Below are positions 8,132 to 63,638 of a stretch of DNA of 64,000 nt, one piece after another. Origin of the DNA: Prochlorococcus marinus str. MIT 9302. Its GTDB lineage: Bacteria > Cyanobacteriota > Cyanobacteriia > PCC-6307 > Cyanobiaceae. Numbering within the stretch: position 1 is the stretch's first letter; each line of letters starts with the position of its first letter. The notes beneath the pieces are model-generated. The model saw nothing but the letters and a program-made list of their open reading frames with translations, was not told where the DNA came from and did no database searches. The DNA lies in the NCBI RefSeq assembly GCF_000759975.1, contig NZ_JNAM01000010.1, positions 124,001 to 188,000 of the forward strand. The letters are read 5' to 3'. The translations under genes and the position numbers were made by a program.

Positions 8132-9178
8132 CTAATTTGAATTAAATCTACATGATGAAAGTTGATTCTTAATAGTTTGATGATCTAAGTTTTTCCCAAT
8201 TATTACTATCTTGTTAGATTTTTCCTTCGTCCATTCTTGGTCATCTAGAGAAAACCGTTTCCCAGATAGGTGAAAAATGTGTTTTCGCCCACTTTCCATA
8301 AACCATAAGATTCCTTTTGCTCTAAATATATTTTGTGATATTTGATTGTCTAAAAAATATTGAAACTTCCTTAAGGAAAATGGTTCAAATGTCTCATAAG
8401 AAACTGATGTAAACCCTTCGATATTATTAATCAAATCGTGTGAATGAGAAGAGTGATCGTGTGAATGAGAAGAGTGATCGTGTGAATGAGAAGAGTGATC
8501 GTGTGAATGAGAAGAGTGATCGTGTGAATTGTCTTCTACATTTTTCTTTTTTTTCTCGAATTGAAAAGTATCTGTCTCAAAAAGACCAACGCTCATTATA
8601 GTTTGTAAACCAACTTCACTATTTATTGATCTCAAGATTCTGGGTTCTTTTTTTATATTATTTATAAAATTTTCTACTTTCTTTAATTGTTCTTCATTCA
8701 CTAAATCACATTTATTTAGAAGGAGGATATCTCCGTATAAAATTTGAGAATAAGCGACACTTGTATTATTAATTTCAAAATCAAAATTTTCTCCATCAAT
8801 AACAGTGATGATCGAATCTAACCTTACTTTTTCTCTAAGATCACCAGCCGCAAAAGTCATAGCTACTGGTAATGGATCTGCTAGCCCAGTTGTCTCAACA
8901 ATTAAATAGTCTATTTTTTCAGCTTTTTCTAAAACTTTGGAGACTGTATTTAATAATTCGCCATTGATAGAGCAACATATACATCCATTATTTAATTCAA
9001 TCATATCTTCTGAACCTTCTATTATTAAGTCATTATCTATTCCGATCTCTCCAAATTCGTTAACTAAAACAGCTGTTCTAATGCCAACTTGATTTTCTAA
9101 AATATGATTTAAAAGTGTGGTTTTGCCAGAACCTAAAAATCCACTGATAATCGTAACTGGCAATAACTTTTTAGACAT
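8132..9178 (-). CDS. COG0523/CobW-family GTPase with His-rich metal-binding repeat
   Basis: The 348-residue G3E GTPase has a Walker A GFLGSGKT (13-20), the hallmark metal-binding CxCC motif GCICCS (C66, C68, C69), an ETTGLADP switch region, the guanine-specificity NKCD (155-158), and a CobW C-terminal domain. Between the domains (about 218-248) lie four tandem SHDHSSH heptads plus a partial copy, giving nine or more histidines. COG0523 proteins deliver zinc or cobalt; His-rich linkers are common in zinc members. Whether this copy serves zinc homeostasis or B12 metabolism cannot be decided from sequence. The 27 bases to the permease suggest co-transcription. Confidence 0.9.
   Translation of the reverse strand: MSKKLLPVTIISGFLGSGKTTLLNHILENQVGIRTAVLVNEFGEIGIDNDLIIEGSEDMIELNNGCICCSINGELLNTVSKVLEKAEKIDYLIVETTGLADPLPVAMTFAAGDLREKVRLDSIITVIDGENFDFEINNTSVAYSQILYGDILLLNKCDLVNEEQLKKVENFINNIKKEPRILRSINSEVGLQTIMSVGLFETDTFQFEKKKKNVEDNSHDHSSHSHDHSSHSHDHSSHSHDHSSHSHDLINNIEGFTSVSYETFEPFSLRKFQYFLDNQISQNIFRAKGILWFMESGRKHIFHLSGKRFSLDDQEWTKEKSNKIVIIGKNLDHQTIKNQLSSCRFNSN
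8435..8529 (-). repeat. 21-base tandem repeat coding for His-rich heptads
   Basis: Four perfect copies of a 21-base unit lie head to tail at 8435-8455, 8456-8476, 8477-8497 and 8498-8518, with an 11-base partial copy to 8529. Read on the minus strand each unit encodes SHDHSSH. The copies are identical at synonymous positions too, which suggests recent expansion by slippage or unequal exchange and probable copy-number variation between strains. Confidence 0.95.
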
Positions 9179-13311: not shown

Positions 13312-14493
13312 TTATTTTATATATTCTTTTAAAACTCCATTTCGATTTGGATGTCTAAGCTTTCTAAGAGCTTTTGCTTCTATTTGCCTGATTCTTTCTC
13401 TTGTTACATCAAAAATCTGTCCGATTTCTTCAAGAGTTTTCATTCGTCCGTCATCAATTCCATATCTCAACCTAAGCACATCTCTTTCTCTTGGACTGAG
13501 AGTCGCTAAAACTCCTTCTAAATCTTCTCTTAATAAGGTTTTAGAAACATCCTGCTCTGGATTTTCTATATCAGCTTCTATAAAGTCTCCAAGTCTTGAG
13601 TCTTCTTCTTTACCTATTGGAGTTTCTAAAGAAATAGGCAGCTGAGCACTTTTAGCTATAAATCTTAATTTTTCAATTGTCATTTCCATACTCTCAGCTA
13701 TCTCTTCTTCACTTGGTTTTCTCCCAAATTCTTGGCTGAGAACTTTTGTGGTTTTTTTGATTCTGGATATTGTCTCGTATAAATGAACTGGCAATCTAAT
13801 AGTCCTACTTTGATCTGCGATTGCTCTAGTAATGGCTTGGCGAATCCACCAAGTAGCATAAGTAGAGAATTTATAACCTTTTTCATGGTCAAATTTTTCT
13901 GCTGCCCTTATTAGACCCAAACTTCCTTCTTGTATTAAATCTTGAAATGATAAACCTCTATTCATATATTTTTTAGCAATAGAGACAACTAATCTTAAAT
14001 TTGATTGCACCATTTTTTCTTTAGCTCTTCTTCCTAAAAGCAGTCTTCTTCTGAATTTGGAAAGAGGCATATCTATTAATTCGGCCCATTCTCTAACAGA
14101 AGGGAAATGGCCTTTTTCTGACTCATATTGAGTTGCCAGTTCTTCTAATTGGAGTAAATCAGCAATTTTTCTTGCGAGTTCAATTTCTTCATCTGGTCTT
14201 AAAAGTCTAATTCTTCCAATTTCTTGCAGGTAAACTCTGATTGAATCTTCAGTGTATATGCCTTTTGGTCCAAGCTTTATGTTCCCAAGACCTTTGTCTT
14301 CGTCTTCAGAATCACTAAACTCATTATTGGTTTCTAAGCTGCTTTCGTTTGAATCAGAAGATCCCTGTAAATTTTGACTATTAATATTACTATCTTCTTC
14401 AGCTACTGTTTCTAAATTAGTATTAATTTTTTTGTTAATCTTTTTTTTTGAACTAGGCTTGGAATTCTTCGATTCTGCTGCTACTGGACACAT
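13312..14493 (-). CDS. rpoD: principal (group 1) sigma-70 factor
   Basis: The 393-residue protein has a Ser/Asn/acidic-rich N-terminal tail (1-75), region 1.2 ([16 protein letters not shown]), the core region 2 with [20 protein letters not shown] and [14 protein letters not shown], region 3, and region 4.2 helix-turn-helix [27 protein letters not shown] (in two halves: [14 protein letters not shown] and [13 protein letters not shown]). The completeness of 1.2-4.2 and match to the housekeeping consensus mark it as the principal cyanobacterial sigma rather than an alternative group 2 factor, though those are close. It has an unusually good ribosome binding site for this genome. Confidence 0.93.
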
Positions 14494-14498
14494 GATTT

Positions 14499-14506
14499 AC
14501 TCCTTT
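14499..14506 (-). promoter_or_regulatory. strong Shine-Dalgarno of the sigma factor gene
   Basis: On the minus strand AAAGGAGT lies five bases before the ATG at 14493. Most genes here lack a recognisable Shine-Dalgarno, so this near-perfect site supports the chosen start and suggests efficient translation. Confidence 0.6.
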
Positions 14507-14626
14507 CTACGGTGAATTTAACTAGATAAAATTTTATTTAGGGCTAATTTGTACATTTAGTAGTAAAGTACCCCTTAATTTGTAAAAGAACTTTTTCAGG
14601 AATGTTAAAAAAAAAAGTTTTTTAAA

Positions 14627-14655
14627 TTGTTGAAAAATTTAAATAGTGCTATAGA
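14627..14655 (+). promoter_or_regulatory. candidate sigma-70 promoter for priA
   Basis: TTGTTG (14627-14632) and TATAGA (14650-14655) are separated by 17 bases, close to a housekeeping promoter. Transcription would begin near 14662, giving a leader of about 155 bases. In such AT-rich DNA chance matches are frequent. Confidence 0.4.
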
Positions 14656-14733
14656 TTACCTAAAGTAAAAAGTCTTGGGATTTCTCAGACAGGCAGATCA
14701 GGTTTTGAATTTTCACTCAATGATCAAAGCTTC

Positions 14734-14820
14734 ATGTCTCCCTTAAGAGCAGGATACTTACAATGTGAAAAAAACACTTTGTGGAATGTTCAACAATCCA
14801 ATACTAAGAAAAAGTTTTGA
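14734..14820 (+). CDS. possible 28-codon upstream ORF overlapping the priA start
   Basis: An ATG at 14734 opens a frame of 28 codons beginning MSPLRAGYLQCEKNT and ending with TGA at 14818-14820. The stop overlaps the priA TTG start (14817-14819), an arrangement that can couple translation. The frame also contains the 15-base repeat segment at 14780-14794. No family is recognised, no Shine-Dalgarno precedes it, and it may be a chance frame. Confidence 0.25.
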   Translation: MSPLRAGYLQCEKNTLWNVQQSNTKKKF

Positions 14821-17093
14821 AGCCGGCAAGTAATCAATTATTAAATATCTCCTATAAATTAGAAATATTGCTTGATATAGGTAGTAGTAATAATAGCTTT
14901 TACTATTTAGATGGAAATAATCTTGGGGTAGAAGTTGGGGATATTGTAATTGTGAAACTAAGAGGGAGATTATTGAATGGGTTGGTGATCTCCAAAGAGA
15001 ACTTTTCGAAAATTAATCAAGATGAAGCAAATATTACTGCAGGAAGAAGTATAAGATATTTGTTTGTTGAAGGAATTTTGCAGAAAAGAATAATTGATAA
15101 TTGTTGGAGAGAATGGATAGAGTCTCTAGCTTCTTTTTATATGGTTAGTAATTTAAAAATGTTTAAAACAGCATTTCCTCCAGGTTGGATTGGTAAATAT
15201 AAAAAAAATTCACAAGGAATGAAAACTCAAATATGGATTGAAACCAAAAAAGGATTTGATATAAAAAAAAATGAATTGACCAATAAAGAATTTTTATTAA
15301 TAAATACTTTGCCCGAAAAAGGTGATTGGCAAAGTGAATTAATAAAGTCTGGTTTTAATTACACTCTCATTAACTCAATGGTAAGTAAAAATTACCTGGT
15401 TAAATCTAAAAGAAAAAAGACAATAATTACTAAATTAAATTCCTTTTTAAATGATCATATTGCAACAAAAAAACCAAATCTTACATATGAGCAAAAAATT
15501 GCATTTCAAGAATTTCAAACAATGAAACCTGGAGATGCTTTACTTTTATGGGGTGAGACGGGTTCAGGGAAAACAGAAGTTTATATGAGAATTTCTGAAT
15601 ATCAATTATTTAAGAAAAAAAGTTGTTTGATACTTGCCCCAGAAATTGGCCTAATTCCGCAACTTGTTGATAGATTTAGTCGGCGATTTAATAATGTTGT
15701 TTACGAATATCATAGTAATTGTTCTTCTGGTCATAGAACGTTAGTTTGGAAGAAAATTATTAATGCTAATGAGCCTCTAATAGTTATAGGAACAAGGTCT
15801 GCAGTTTTTCTCCCAATTAAAAATCTAGGATTAATAATAATGGATGAAGAACATGATGTTTCATATAAGCAAGATAGCCCTATGCCTTGTTATGACGCAA
15901 GAGAGATTGCTATTGAAATTGTAAAAAGGAACTCTGCAAAGCTTATCTTTGGGAGTGCAACTCCATCAATGAAGACTTGGAAAAAGTGTTTTTTTGAAAA
16001 GGATTTTAAGTTGGTAAGAATGATTCAAAGGATATCAAGTAAAGAGGTGCCTGAAATAAGAATTATTGATATGCGTGATGAATTTAAGAAGGGAAATATG
16101 AAAATCTTATCCGATGAATTATTACAATTGCTACCTCAACTACGATTTAAGAATGAGCAGGCAATAATTTTGATCCCTAGAAGGGGGCATAGTGGGTTTT
16201 TAAGTTGTAGAAATTGCGGATATTTAATAAATTGTCCCAATTGTGACGTTCCTTTATCGGTTCATCTCGGTTCACAAGGAACAAAATGGTTAAGATGTCA
16301 CTGGTGTGAGCATAAATCAAGACTGATCAATCGTTGCCCAGATTGTAATTCAAATGCCTTCAAACCTTTTGGAATAGGGACTCAAAGAGTTATTGAGTTT
16401 TTAAATGAAGAATTTCCAGACTTAAGAGTACTTCGCTTTGATCGAGATACAACCTCAGGAAAGGATGGTCATAGAGATATTCTTTCAAAGTTTTCTAGAG
16501 GTGATGCCGATATTCTTGTAGGGACTCAAATGTTAGCAAAAGGTATTGACATCCCCAATATCACTCTTTCAGTAGTTTTAGCAGCAGATGGATTGCTTCA
16601 TCGTCCCGATATTTCGGCAGAAGAAAAATCATTACAATTGTTTTTACAATTAGCTGGCAGGGCAGGCAGGGCTCAAAAAAAAGGAAAAGTCATTTTTCAA
16701 ACATATAAACCAAGCCATCCTGTAATTTCATATCTTCAAAATAGAGATTACGAAAGATTTTTAATTGAAAATTCGAAATTGAGAAAAGATGCAAATTTGT
16801 TCCCATTTTGCAAAATTTGCCTTCTTAAATTATCAGGTGAAAACTATGAATTAACTGAATCAATTGCAATAAAATTAGCAAAATATCTACTAAATCTTTG
16901 TGAGAAAAGGAATTGGAAATTAATTGGTCCTGCTCCAAGTTTAATTGCGAAAGTTGGGAAAAAATTTAGGTGGCAGATATTAATCCATGGTCCTGAAGGC
17001 TCAAAGATCCCTTTGCCAGATAGGTCATTATTATGGAAACTTATTCCAAAAAATGTTTTTTTAACAATTGACGTTAATCCAGTAGAGTTGTAA
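14817..17093 (+). CDS. priA: primosomal replication restart helicase PriA
   Basis: The 758-residue superfamily 2 helicase restarts stalled forks by loading the replicative helicase. It has an N-terminal 3' DNA-binding domain (1-110), Walker A GETGSGKT (246-253), the DEEH box (343-346), TRSAVFLP, and a zinc-binding insertion of paired cysteines (CRNCGYLINCPNC and CHWCEHKSRLINRCPDC). Motifs V/VI (GTQMLAKGID, LAGRAGRAQKKG) follow. The start is TTG at 14817; homology to the PriA N-terminus (VGDIVIVKLRGR at about 40) fits this start. The gene is followed without a gap by a convergent membrane protein gene. Confidence 0.95.
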   Translation: MKPASNQLLNISYKLEILLDIGSSNNSFYYLDGNNLGVEVGDIVIVKLRGRLLNGLVISKENFSKINQDEANITAGRSIRYLFVEGILQKRIIDNCWREWIESLASFYMVSNLKMFKTAFPPGWIGKYKKNSQGMKTQIWIETKKGFDIKKNELTNKEFLLINTLPEKGDWQSELIKSGFNYTLINSMVSKNYLVKSKRKKTIITKLNSFLNDHIATKKPNLTYEQKIAFQEFQTMKPGDALLLWGETGSGKTEVYMRISEYQLFKKKSCLILAPEIGLIPQLVDRFSRRFNNVVYEYHSNCSSGHRTLVWKKIINANEPLIVIGTRSAVFLPIKNLGLIIMDEEHDVSYKQDSPMPCYDAREIAIEIVKRNSAKLIFGSATPSMKTWKKCFFEKDFKLVRMIQRISSKEVPEIRIIDMRDEFKKGNMKILSDELLQLLPQLRFKNEQAIILIPRRGHSGFLSCRNCGYLINCPNCDVPLSVHLGSQGTKWLRCHWCEHKSRLINRCPDCNSNAFKPFGIGTQRVIEFLNEEFPDLRVLRFDRDTTSGKDGHRDILSKFSRGDADILVGTQMLAKGIDIPNITLSVVLAADGLLHRPDISAEEKSLQLFLQLAGRAGRAQKKGKVIFQTYKPSHPVISYLQNRDYERFLIENSKLRKDANLFPFCKICLLKLSGENYELTESIAIKLAKYLLNLCEKRNWKLIGPAPSLIAKVGKKFRWQILIHGPEGSKIPLPDRSLLWKLIPKNVFLTIDVNPVEL

Positions 17094-60930: not shown

Positions 60931-61515
60931 TTAATTTAAACCAATTTCTTTTTTTAAAAAAGGCGACATCATTTTTGCAGCTTTACCCCTACTACCTAAT
61001 TTACTTAGTTGTGATTGTGAAAGATCTCCATAAACACAGTTAGCTTCTTTAACCCAAAAAATAGATTCGAATTCCCCATTTGGGTATTTTGGATTTTTAA
61101 GAATTTCTCCCCAGCATATTCCAGTTGTATCCTTAACTAAGTTTCCTGAGGGATCGCACAAAACCATACAACTTATAAATCTTGCGCTTCTATAAGGACT
61201 ATCGGAAAGTTCCTTAATCAATTTTTTAATTTTTTCAGCGTTGTTTTTGGCATACCTAGCAGAATATATCCCTGGTCGACCATCTAAAATATCTACTTCA
61301 AGACCAGAGTCATCAGCTAATGCCCAAGTTTTTGTCTCTAAGGAAGCTGCCTTGGCTTTTAGTAGTGCATTCTCAAAATATGTGTTTCCAGTCTCTTCGA
61401 CATTTAAATATTCTGGTTGCTTATTTACCTTTAAAGACAGGACGTCTAGCATTTCCGAAATTTCAGAAACCTTTTTTTGGTTGCCACTTGCAATGGTGAG
61501 AACTGGAAGGTTCAA
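60931..61515 (-). CDS. rdgB: XTP/dITP pyrophosphatase (Ham1/RdgB)
   Basis: The 194-residue enzyme removes non-canonical purine nucleotides from the pool. It has LTIASGNQKKVSEI, the ADDSGLEVD metal-binding motif, GRPGIYSARYA and RGKAAKMMSPFLK. The gene is on the minus strand, between two carboxysome genes, so it interrupts the cso region. Its 3' end is eight bases from the csoS1D stop. The start is ATG at 61515, and the 326-base intergenic upstream of it holds the csoS1 leader. Confidence 0.95.
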   Translation of the reverse strand: MNLPVLTIASGNQKKVSEISEMLDVLSLKVNKQPEYLNVEETGNTYFENALLKAKAASLETKTWALADDSGLEVDILDGRPGIYSARYAKNNAEKIKKLIKELSDSPYRSARFISCMVLCDPSGNLVKDTTGICWGEILKNPKYPNGEFESIFWVKEANCVYGDLSQSQLSKLGSRGKAAKMMSPFLKKEIGLN

Positions 61516-61560
61516 AACAGAATAAATTTATTGTGAATATTATCTTACTTCAAAGGTTGA

Positions 61561-61617
61561 TACGGAGACAGGAAAGGTTGAACATTCCACACCTGTGTAG
61601 ACAGGGCCCGTCTCGTA
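61561..61617 (+). ncRNA. candidate structured RNA element upstream of csoS1
   Basis: An outer stem forms between TAC-G-GAGAC (61561-61569) and GTCTC-GTA (61610-61617), extended by GG (61571-61572) with CC (61608-61609). Inside is the hairpin CCTGT-GTAG-ACAGG (61592-61605). The segment between them, 61577-61591, stays single-stranded and is the 15-base sequence complementary to the priA leader. The GC content is far above the surroundings. It may be a small RNA or part of the csoS1 5' leader. I cannot match it to a named Yfr RNA from sequence alone. Confidence 0.45.
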
Positions 61618-61688
61618 CGGAAATAACATAATGTAAATTTTTTATTAACACAACAGTATGTTTTGATGTACTAACTAATTTCTATAAG

Positions 61689-61704
61689 TATTGATATATC
61701 AATA
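61689..61704. promoter_or_regulatory. perfect 16-base palindrome upstream of csoS1
   Basis: TATTGATATATCAATA reads identically on both strands. Its place 138 bases before csoS1 and its length suggest an operator for a dimeric regulator. LysR-type regulators such as CbbR/RbcR control Rubisco genes elsewhere. AT-rich DNA makes palindromes commoner by chance, so this is only a candidate. Confidence 0.35.
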
Positions 61705-61841
61705 GTACCAAGGGTCATAAGTTTATCTTATGAATGATAGAAAAAACATTAATGGAGATTTTATCGAAAATGCTTGACTTATAACTACTAAATGAAGCAT
61801 TCTTCGGATTGAACATTCCACATTTAGTAATTTAGTAGGCA

Positions 61842-62153
61842 ATGGCTACAGAAACAATGGGTATCGCTCTCGGCATGATCGAGACACGCGGACTTGTACC
61901 TGCAATTGAAGCAGCAGACGCAATGACCAAGGCAGCAGAAGTTCGCCTTATTGGTCGTGAATTCGTTGGTGGCGGTTATGTCACAGTATTAGTTAGAGGC
62001 GAAACAGGCGCAGTTAACGCAGCTGTAAGAGCTGGTGCTGATGCTTGTGAAAGAGTTGGTGACGGTTTAGTCGCAGCTCACATTATTGCTCGTCCTCATA
62101 GAGAAGTTGAACCTGCTCTTGGTAATGGTGAATTTCTTGGTCAAAAGGACTAA
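61842..62153 (+). CDS. csoS1: alpha-carboxysome major shell protein CsoS1
   Basis: The 103-residue single BMC-domain protein (MGIALGMIETRGLVPAIEAADAMTKAA in parts, then VRLIGREFVGGGYVTVLVRGETGAV, then HIIARPHREVEPAL) forms hexamers that tile the carboxysome facets; the central pore residues lie in the loop around KAAEVRLIG/FVGGG. Its base composition is clearly richer in G+C than the surrounding genes. It starts the run csoS1-cbbL-cbbS, 69 bases before cbbL. Confidence 0.97.
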   Translation: MATETMGIALGMIETRGLVPAIEAADAMTKAAEVRLIGREFVGGGYVTVLVRGETGAVNAAVRAGADACERVGDGLVAAHIIARPHREVEPALGNGEFLGQKD

Positions 62154-62222: not shown

Positions 62223-63638
62223 ATGAGTAAGAAGTATGATGCAGGGGTAAAGGAGTACAGAGATACCTACTGGACTCCTGAGTATGTACCCCTAGACACC
62301 GATTTACTAGCCTGTTTCAAATGTACAGGCCAAGAAGGTGTTCCAAGAGAAGAAGTTGCAGCGGCTGTTGCGGCTGAATCTTCAACAGGTACTTGGTCAA
62401 CAGTTTGGTCCGAGTTACTTACAGACTTAGAATTTTATAAAGGACGTTGTTATCGAATAGAAGACGTTCCTGGAGATCCTGAAGCTTTTTATGCTTTTAT
62501 TGCATATCCTTTAGATCTTTTTGAAGAAGGTTCTATCACAAACGTATTAACATCTCTAGTTGGAAACGTTTTTGGATTTAAAGCTTTAAGACATTTACGT
62601 CTAGAAGATATAAGATTCCCAATCGCTTTCATTAAGACTTGCGGTGGTCCACCAAATGGAATCGTAGTTGAGAGAGATCGTTTAAACAAATACGGAAGAC
62701 CTCTTCTTGGTTGTACCATTAAACCTAAATTAGGATTATCTGGTAAAAACTATGGTCGAGTTGTATATGAGTGTCTTAGAGGCGGTCTTGATTTAACGAA
62801 GGATGATGAGAATATTAATTCTCAACCATTCCAGCGTTGGAGAGAAAGATTTGAGTTTGTTGCAGAGGCGGTTAAGCTTGCTCAGCAAGAAACTGGAGAA
62901 GTTAAAGGTCACTATTTAAACTGTACTGCTAACACTCCTGAAGAACTCTATGAAAGAGCCGAATTTGCAAAAGAACTAGATATGCCAATCATCATGCATG
63001 ATTACATAACTGGTGGTTTTACTGCAAATACTGGATTAGCAAACTGGTGTCGTAAAAATGGCATGCTTCTGCATATTCATAGAGCTATGCATGCTGTTAT
63101 AGATAGACATCCAAAGCATGGTATCCACTTCAGAGTTCTAGCAAAATGTTTGAGACTCTCCGGAGGAGATCAATTACATACTGGAACTGTTGTTGGAAAA
63201 CTAGAAGGTGATCGTCAAACAACTCTTGGTTACATCGATAACTTAAGAGAGTCATTTGTTCCTGAAGATAGGTCAAGAGGTAACTTCTTTGATCAAGATT
63301 GGGGTTCAATGCCTGGAGTGTTTGCCGTCGCATCAGGTGGTATTCACGTTTGGCATATGCCTGCACTTTTAGCGATTTTTGGAGATGATTCTTGTCTTCA
63401 GTTTGGTGGAGGAACACATGGTCATCCATGGGGTTCAGCTGCTGGAGCTGCAGCTAACAGAGTCGCTTTAGAAGCTTGTGTTAAAGCACGTAATGCAGGT
63501 CGCGAAATTGAAAAAGAGAGTAGAGACATTCTTATGGAAGCTGCTAAGCATAGTCCTGAATTAGCTATTGCTCTTGAAACTTGGAAGGAAATCAAGTTTG
63601 AGTTTGATACCGTCGACAAGCTTGACGTTCAAGGTTAA
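62223..63638 (+). CDS. cbbL: Rubisco large subunit, form IA
   Basis: The 471-residue catalytic subunit fixes CO2 onto ribulose bisphosphate in the carboxysome. The carbamylated lysine is K193 in [11 protein letters not shown], with the metal ligands D195 and E196; [35 protein letters not shown] (in parts) and the loop-6 GKLEGDR are intact. Form IA identity follows from the neighbouring cso genes and from sequence character. The gene is flanked by csoS1 and cbbS in the standard carboxysome order. Confidence 0.98.

Follow-up and report, generated by a model that had tools for sequence, protein, structure and literature searches.

What keeps one 15-base sequence in two intergenic regions is the question raised by the DNA analysed here, a 64,000-nucleotide stretch of the Prochlorococcus marinus str. 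MIT 9302 genome (the window). As a preliminary description had observed, TGTGGAATGTTCAAC at 14780-14794 (+), before priA, has its exact reverse complement at 61577-61591, upstream of csoS1. That description held such a match to be unlikely by chance in 64 kb, an argument that fails on length, since the AT-rich window contains 36 such exact inverted matches of 15 bases at separations above 100 bp, many of which overlap; the 14780/61577 pair has the highest G+C count among them. Chance is excluded instead because the match is conserved: the exact 14-mer TGTGGAATGTTCAA occurs in 247 of 266 genus genomes, including all 87 of good quality, and a reversed control occurs in none.

Within its own genome the exact 15-mer is found at these two positions only, and the 14-mer four times, as three window copies and one coding copy. 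The third window copy (14 of 15 bases), absent from the preliminary description, lies at 61808-61822 (-), 231 bp from the copy at 61577-61591. The fourth (G000:C12:22510-22523) encodes the C-terminus (..LWNVQV) of what we take to be an ABC-transporter-like protein, and further genomes of the genus have this coding match too (L041, L055). Dozens of genomic copies had been named as the result that would speak against a functional pairing; a count of four leaves the idea standing and rules out a repetitive element, one copy being coding. Allowing up to three mismatches, the matches listed for this genome include 25 further loci (L006-L030, one of them the coding 14-mer), 22 of which lie inside reading frames of at least 100 aa, with L026, L028, and L029 outside.

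Features of the window discussed in the text (positions in the window; evidence as recorded for each feature)
Feature	Position	Strand	Evidence or remark
rpoD, principal-type sigma factor	13312..14493	-	Pfam sigma-70 r1.2, r2, r3, r4
15-base match TGTGGAATGTTCAAC	14780-14794	+	exact match
Second target site GUUGAACAUUCCACA, predicted rpoD mRNA 5´ end	14780..14794	-	direct sequence; conserved in genus alignment
Predicted rpoD promoter TTGCCG-N17-TAGTAT	14801..14829	-	puts 14780 site at predicted rpoD +1
priA, divergent neighbour of rpoD	14817..17093	+	Pfam PriA_C, DEAD, Zn_ribbon_PriA
rdgB/Ham1-like NTP pyrophosphatase	60931..61515	-	Pfam Ham1p_like; start TTG per ORF tool
Structured RNA element, three-way junction (putative)	61565..61614	-	covariation, strand tests, covariance model R1
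Element helix P1	61607-61614/61565-61572	-	
P2 loop GUGGAAUGUUCAAC, contact 1	61577..61591	-	exact match; csoS1-upstream 15-mer of the preliminary description
Element helix P3	61601-61605/61592-61596	-	
P3 loop UGUCUAC, contact 2	61597..61603	-	complement of csoS1 leader GUAGGCA, 61835-61841, one G.U
CATAAG-N5-CTTATG palindrome upstream of csoS1 promoter	61716..61732	+	direct sequence
Predicted csoS1 promoter TTGACT-N18-CATTCT	61774..61803	+	conserved across distinct upstreams
csoS1 target site UUGAACAUUCCACA	61809..61822	+	direct sequence
csoS1 (BMC shell protein), adjoins rbcL	61842..62153	+	Pfam BMC
rbcL	62223..63638	+	Pfam RuBisCO_large

The site before priA had been described as part of the priA leader. 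It does precede priA, and this is only half of its setting: because Pfam finds sigma-70 regions in the neighbouring minus-strand frame, the site is common to the divergent rpoD/priA pair. In the rpoD direction its sequence is GTTGAACATTCCACA, which matches the csoS1 site in sense, and promoters similar to the one predicted for rpoD were seen by eye at the corresponding position in other genera. The csoS1 site likewise falls at a predicted mRNA 5´ end, 19 nt before the start codon, so that the GAACAUUCC sites mark the predicted 5´ ends of both the csoS1 and the rpoD mRNA. Among 98 distinct csoS1 upstream sequences, TTGAC is present in every one, 93 have [CT]AnnnT at 18 nt downstream of the -35 hexamer, and GAAC (or GGAC/CAAC) begins 37 nt from TTGAC, at the predicted +1, in 91. 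The sequence at that +1 is mostly GAACATTCCA[CT]CC, antisense to the P2 loop as read on the minus strand. Palindromes similar to the one upstream of the csoS1 promoter, which we presume to resemble a LysR-type RbcR/CbbR operator, were seen by eye in other genera.

The csoS1-upstream copy lies within a candidate structured RNA, and the case for it is comparative, because the window sequence alone folds no better than its shuffles (z -0.93 on the minus strand, -1.49 on the plus) and single-sequence folding energies do not tell the strands apart. Near rdgB, the arms of the element change together across the family (GAGACAGG/CCTGTCTC, GGGGCAGG/CCTGCCCC, and others), with further covarying pairs in AAGCGTGC/GCACGCTT and GGAACCGG/CCGGTTCC. 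Among 22 selected examples, each of the eight positions of P1 shows two to four Watson-Crick pair types, and the P2 loop columns are near-invariant in alignments A1 and A2. Over 14 positions of this loop, the predicted unpaired probability in the window sequence ranges from 0.15 to 0.99.

Non-Watson-Crick pairs bear on the strand. Pairs were scored by Watson-Crick matches only, so that neither strand was favoured. We used 43 curated sequences, that is, 42 of 50 element rows plus L131, leaving out the near-duplicates L051, L077, L090, L116, and L138 together with L073, L211, and L218. Read as minus-strand RNA, these give 325 Watson-Crick, 13 G.U, 2 A.C, and 4 other pairs in P1 (338 of 344 cells paired) and 249, 28, 5, and 31 in P3. 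For 78 distinct script-found sequences the corresponding counts are 573, 23, 12, and 16 in P1 (596 of 624 paired) and 457, 43, 10, and 57 in P3, a total of 66 G.U against 22 A.C. P1 of this larger set is less one-sided (23 against 12), and some of its A.C cases derive from an outer T.G pair, which would point to the plus strand. On balance, the G.U pairs favour an RNA of the minus strand.

A promoter-like signal points the same way. TAnnnT occurs on the minus strand 5-8 nt before P1 in 41 of 53 sequences, a set that includes two coding false positives (L041, L055), compared with a mean of 6.1 and a maximum of 11 in shuffles, and in several genomes a -35 starting with TTG was seen by eye a further 17 nt upstream. 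In the window's own genus, high-light (HL) Prochlorococcus, the minus-strand -10 is less clear and off the usual spacing. A generic scan of 61480-61860 returned neither promoter nor terminator-like site, and it also missed the predicted csoS1 promoter.

Together, covariation and the promoter-like signal place the candidate element on the minus strand, contrary to the plus-strand reading of the preliminary description, and a minus-strand element has a loop antisense to the csoS1 mRNA, not to that of priA. The 14780 site, for its part, sits at the predicted 5´ end of the minus-strand rpoD mRNA. The earlier proposal, in which the element is transcribed on the plus strand and its RNA pairs with the leader of the priA mRNA, thus keeps its central idea of RNA-RNA pairing and loses its strand and its target. 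It does account for a perfect 15-base complement, with a predicted energy of -27.4 kcal/mol for the plus-strand element and priA; the strand tests and promoter-like signal weigh against it, as does the restricted occurrence of the site before priA (below), and we regard it as very improbable.

Predicted duplexes of the minus-strand element reach -36.9 kcal/mol with csoS1, -32.4 with rpoD, and -21.6 with priA; shuffled controls of the csoS1 duplex average -17.3, the best of 500 reaching -31.7. C-to-U changes in the target are compatible with G.U pairing and carry no weight, because AT-biased mutation would explain them too. A second contact may be made by the P3 loop, which complements the csoS1 Shine-Dalgarno or start codon with a lineage-specific sequence: CAUUGCC/GGCAAUG in genus g20, GCUAUGUC/GACAUGGC in g35, CCUGAAGG/CCUUCAGG in g14, CCUGGAG/CUCCAGG in g6, g8, and g27, and UGUCUAC/GUAGACA in several HL genomes. 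Taken alone, contact 2 of the window is weak, ranking 54 among 200 shuffles.

Comparison with swapped partners is more telling. With each genus limited to one pair (26 genera, 65 pairs), cognate partners bind better than swapped ones at a median z of -4.77 for contact 1 and -4.17 for contact 2, and a smaller run of 23 genera gives -4.45 and -4.17. For 53 distinct loop/target pairs, none of 5000 permutations binds as well as the cognate pairing. L211, L218, and some others were absent from the 53-pair and 23-genus tests, and the 53-pair test also skipped L073, L166, and L164, where the script found no element; the 26-genus test adds g3, g12, g18, L211, L073, and a few more, with nothing skipped. 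Contact 2 weakens once freshwater-type genera are removed, to a median p of 0.014 (worst 0.17) over 18 genera and, in the smaller run, of 0.026 (worst 0.29) over 16. As is characteristic of a base-pairing RNA, the element has a conserved complement to csoS1 mRNA that is preferentially cognate. These comparisons, like those of structure and of linked loss, account only partly for phylogeny.

The layout in other genomes bears on how the two sequences relate. Among 30 genomes, most of them selected because they held a near match, 28 carry exactly two same-orientation copies of GAACATTCCA[CT]CC (controls 0); one copy lies just before csoS1 in all 15 genomes where csoS1 was also located, and in 26 of the 28 the copies are 1.6-1.9 kb apart. 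Many freshwater-type genomes (L075-L090, L136-L140) have an sbtA-type bicarbonate transporter between element and csoS1, confirmed by Pfam Sbt_1 for one locus (L084). With this spacing and sbtA in between, the predicted RNAs do not overlap, so that the complement would be maintained between separate transcripts; rdgB, the element, sbtA, and csoS1 would thus form one inorganic-carbon locus.

Where the element is lost, its partner tends to be lost too. An intact csoS1 10-mer GAACATTCCA is present in 54 of 58 genomes in which covariance model R1 finds the element and in 5 of 17 in which it does not (Fisher 3e-7), in a sample of 75 genomes chosen by element status and not by target, with HL genomes and G290 (no csoS1 match) set aside. 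Among the five exceptions, G286 and G349 have an element visible by eye, G282 has a decayed and G276 a half element, and none was found in G294; of the two remnants (L244 in G282, L233 in G276), one keeps P1 with the loop destroyed and the other keeps only the P3 half of the element. Genera g37, g27, and g19 hold both states, and their element-less member has the damaged csoS1 site. The same contrast shows no difference within g12 and g22, and runs in the opposite direction within g18.

Could the shared sequence instead be a double-stranded operator, with a dimeric regulator bound to TGTnGAAnnTTCnACA at the csoS1 and rpoD starts and to the distal site, possibly by DNA looping? In favour of this, the sequence reads as an imperfect palindrome and coincides with the predicted +1 of two promoters; the copies 231-232 bp apart in this genus are separated by close to 22 helical turns; and an operator, too, would be expected to show linked loss. 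The reading has no place, however, for a distal copy that forms a hairpin loop of RNA type, its G.U pairs biased toward one strand, nor for the second complementarity, both of which it must treat as coincidence, and near-integral spacing gives way to the kilobase distances of other genomes. We judge an operator unlikely.

The element might also be a cis-acting leader of rdgB and nothing more, with GAACATTCC at csoS1 being simply the initially transcribed sequence, or with the csoS1 mRNA acting on rdgB. It lies 49 nt upstream of rdgB on the minus strand in the window, with no terminator-like site between the two, and a short distance before rdgB in all loci read where both are present. GAAC, moreover, persists at csoS1 in most genomes that lack the element. 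Most genomes without a model hit nonetheless show damage in the remainder of the csoS1 site, the cognate pairing is specific, and in HL Prochlorococcus rpoD provides a second message with the same complement, which suggests the element as the shared regulator. A purely cis-acting leader therefore appears to us quite unlikely. A small regulatory RNA of the minus strand, conserved in marine and freshwater picocyanobacteria, that pairs with csoS1 mRNA, and in HL strains with rpoD mRNA, is in our estimation the probable explanation of the whole, and pairing between RNAs is the best-supported account of the match with the csoS1-upstream element, as far as sequence comparison can take it.

Covariance model R1 was built from 29 minus-strand sequences; it recovers 61565-61614 at an E of 1.6e-9, the window element being one of the 29. 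Its P1 is blurred, since four g5 rows (L128, L133, L134, L135) of alignment A2 were trimmed by 2-3 nt per end. Run with the stricter filters of Infernal, R1 matches 122 of 200 family genomes in 26 of 37 genera (two genomes with two matches, the rest with one), and in a class sample 13 of 146 genomes, all within the family Cyanobiaceae. An 18-base loop pattern occurs in at least 119 stretches of genome contigs; its holders among the 80 matches listed include Prochlorococcus marinus MIT 9314, Synechococcus sp. UW105 and UW140, and Cyanobium strains. Five out-of-family holders among these matches (Burkholderiaceae, Ruminococcus, Prevotella, Thermodesulfovibrio, and Coleofasciculus) are taken as chance, because R1 aligns only 14-16 loop bases (at most 20.9 bits) and leaves the helices unmatched. 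The pattern was not found in IMG/VR viral contigs, a search for phage-borne copies. Nor does the element match a known RNA family: at the gathering cut-off, Rfam 15 has no match in the window, a local search returned mir-144 only (17 bits against a cut-off of 60), and there was no match in L296, L304, L308, L289, L066, or L084, or at rpoD.

The rpoD site has a narrower distribution. Of 22 genomes searched, 20 rpoD-priA loci of other genera were read, all from R1-positive genomes, and none had a site within two mismatches; the g8 locus holds TTGAACAGTCCA, and the predicted rpoD 5´ end starts with GTTGGACAGCC or similar in many of these loci. In view of these 20 loci, the rpoD target looks like an acquisition of high-light Prochlorococcus, with the element older as a partner of csoS1. 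The available part of one expression study of MED4 places the rbcL peak at dawn and that of rpoD two hours after dark (PMC2663038), and the two targets are therefore not simply co-expressed.

The rpoD-priA gap (14494-14800, minus strand) contains, as a separate observation, a conserved leader-like block, GTTGGACAGCC..GGCTGTTGTCGGAAC..GTTCCGTCCAGAGGGAAGAC..GGTCTGAGAAAGCCCCTGACAGC toward rpoD, in the genera read (L289-L308). It had no Rfam match in the loci scanned and is probably a structured rpoD leader RNA that has diverged in HL.

Minus-strand structure, the promoter-like signal, conserved complementarity, and linked loss are all supported by comparison of genomes, and they suggest a mechanism. 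Transcription of the element would begin at P1 on the minus strand and proceed in the direction of rdgB, and the resulting RNA would be the rdgB 5´ leader or a product processed from it; no terminator, as would be expected of a stand-alone sRNA, follows the structured part in 61480-61860 of the window. The P2 loop would pair with the first ~15 nt of the csoS1 mRNA and the P3 loop with its Shine-Dalgarno/start-codon region. If contact 2 is real, the geometry is one that blocks ribosomes, and the most likely effect would be to bar ribosome entry on the carboxysome-Rubisco operon, repressing csoS1; alternatively, a covered 5´ end might stabilise or destabilise the message. In high-light Prochlorococcus a second target would be the rpoD mRNA, which has the same complement of the loop at its 5´ end. 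To the full proposal, of an RNA family not previously listed, at the 5´ end of the rdgB transcript, that controls alpha-carboxysome/Rubisco translation family-wide by two-point pairing and has captured rpoD in HL strains, we would give an even chance of being right.

The nearest known mechanism is RNA-OUT/RNA-IN of Tn10/IS10, in which the loop of a stable antisense RNA pairs with its target mRNA at the 5´-terminal nucleotides and in the start region. Loop-to-5´-end antisense pairing is what we propose for the element. RNA-OUT and RNA-IN overlap as true antisense RNAs, whereas the element uses a duplicated complement 0.2-1.9 kb away and is a three-way junction heading another gene, with no transposon. 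Rfam also holds models of the Yfr1, Yfr2, and Yfr10 families, which have a shared motif; the element matched none of them in the window, in the local search, or in the selected loci. Yfr1 and Yfr10 are base-pairing sRNAs of Prochlorococcus MED4, and csoS1 and csoS2 are Yfr10-specific targets, according to the available part of PMC6778093, where nothing appears on a csoS1-upstream RNA. Yfr10 and the element thus share organisms and the csoS1 target and are different RNAs. RblR of Synechocystis PCC 6803 also acts on Rubisco expression; in the accessible text of PMC5306279 it is a 113 nt antisense RNA, and it differs from the element in being fully complementary to rbcL and a positive regulator.

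Already in print is cluster 87 of Axmann et al. (2005), a high-scoring region upstream of rbcLS in MIT9313 and WH8102 (336 columns, Z -4.24, reverse -3.64). The portion of that paper at hand (PMC1242208) comments that the region contains a conserved promoter and marks it as not tested, and the row names no element, strand, target, or pairing. The parts available of PMC2518516, PMC7368042, PMC2662882, PMC5607370, PMC13249358, and PMC9692554 contain nothing on the element. Judged by title and opening of the abstract among the matches listed, we found no report of it, and it may have been detected before as an unnamed transcript; by title, none of the matches listed prints the motif in a relevant setting.

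Apart from a CbbR-type regulator and the targets obtained by sRNA pull-down, little is known, to our knowledge, of how Calvin-cycle genes are controlled in Prochlorococcus. If the proposal is true, the element would place a large part of ocean carbon fixation under a control that is family-wide and open to direct test, and the capture of rpoD in HL strains would couple carbon fixation with the capacity for transcription among the most abundant phototrophs, whose Calvin-cycle genes cycle daily according to the available part of PMC2663038. R1 provides a covariance model with which the element can be found.

Elsewhere in the window, the reading frame at 8132-9178 (-) includes a tandem array at 8434-8520, its period being 21 bp (ATCGTGTGAATGAGA...).
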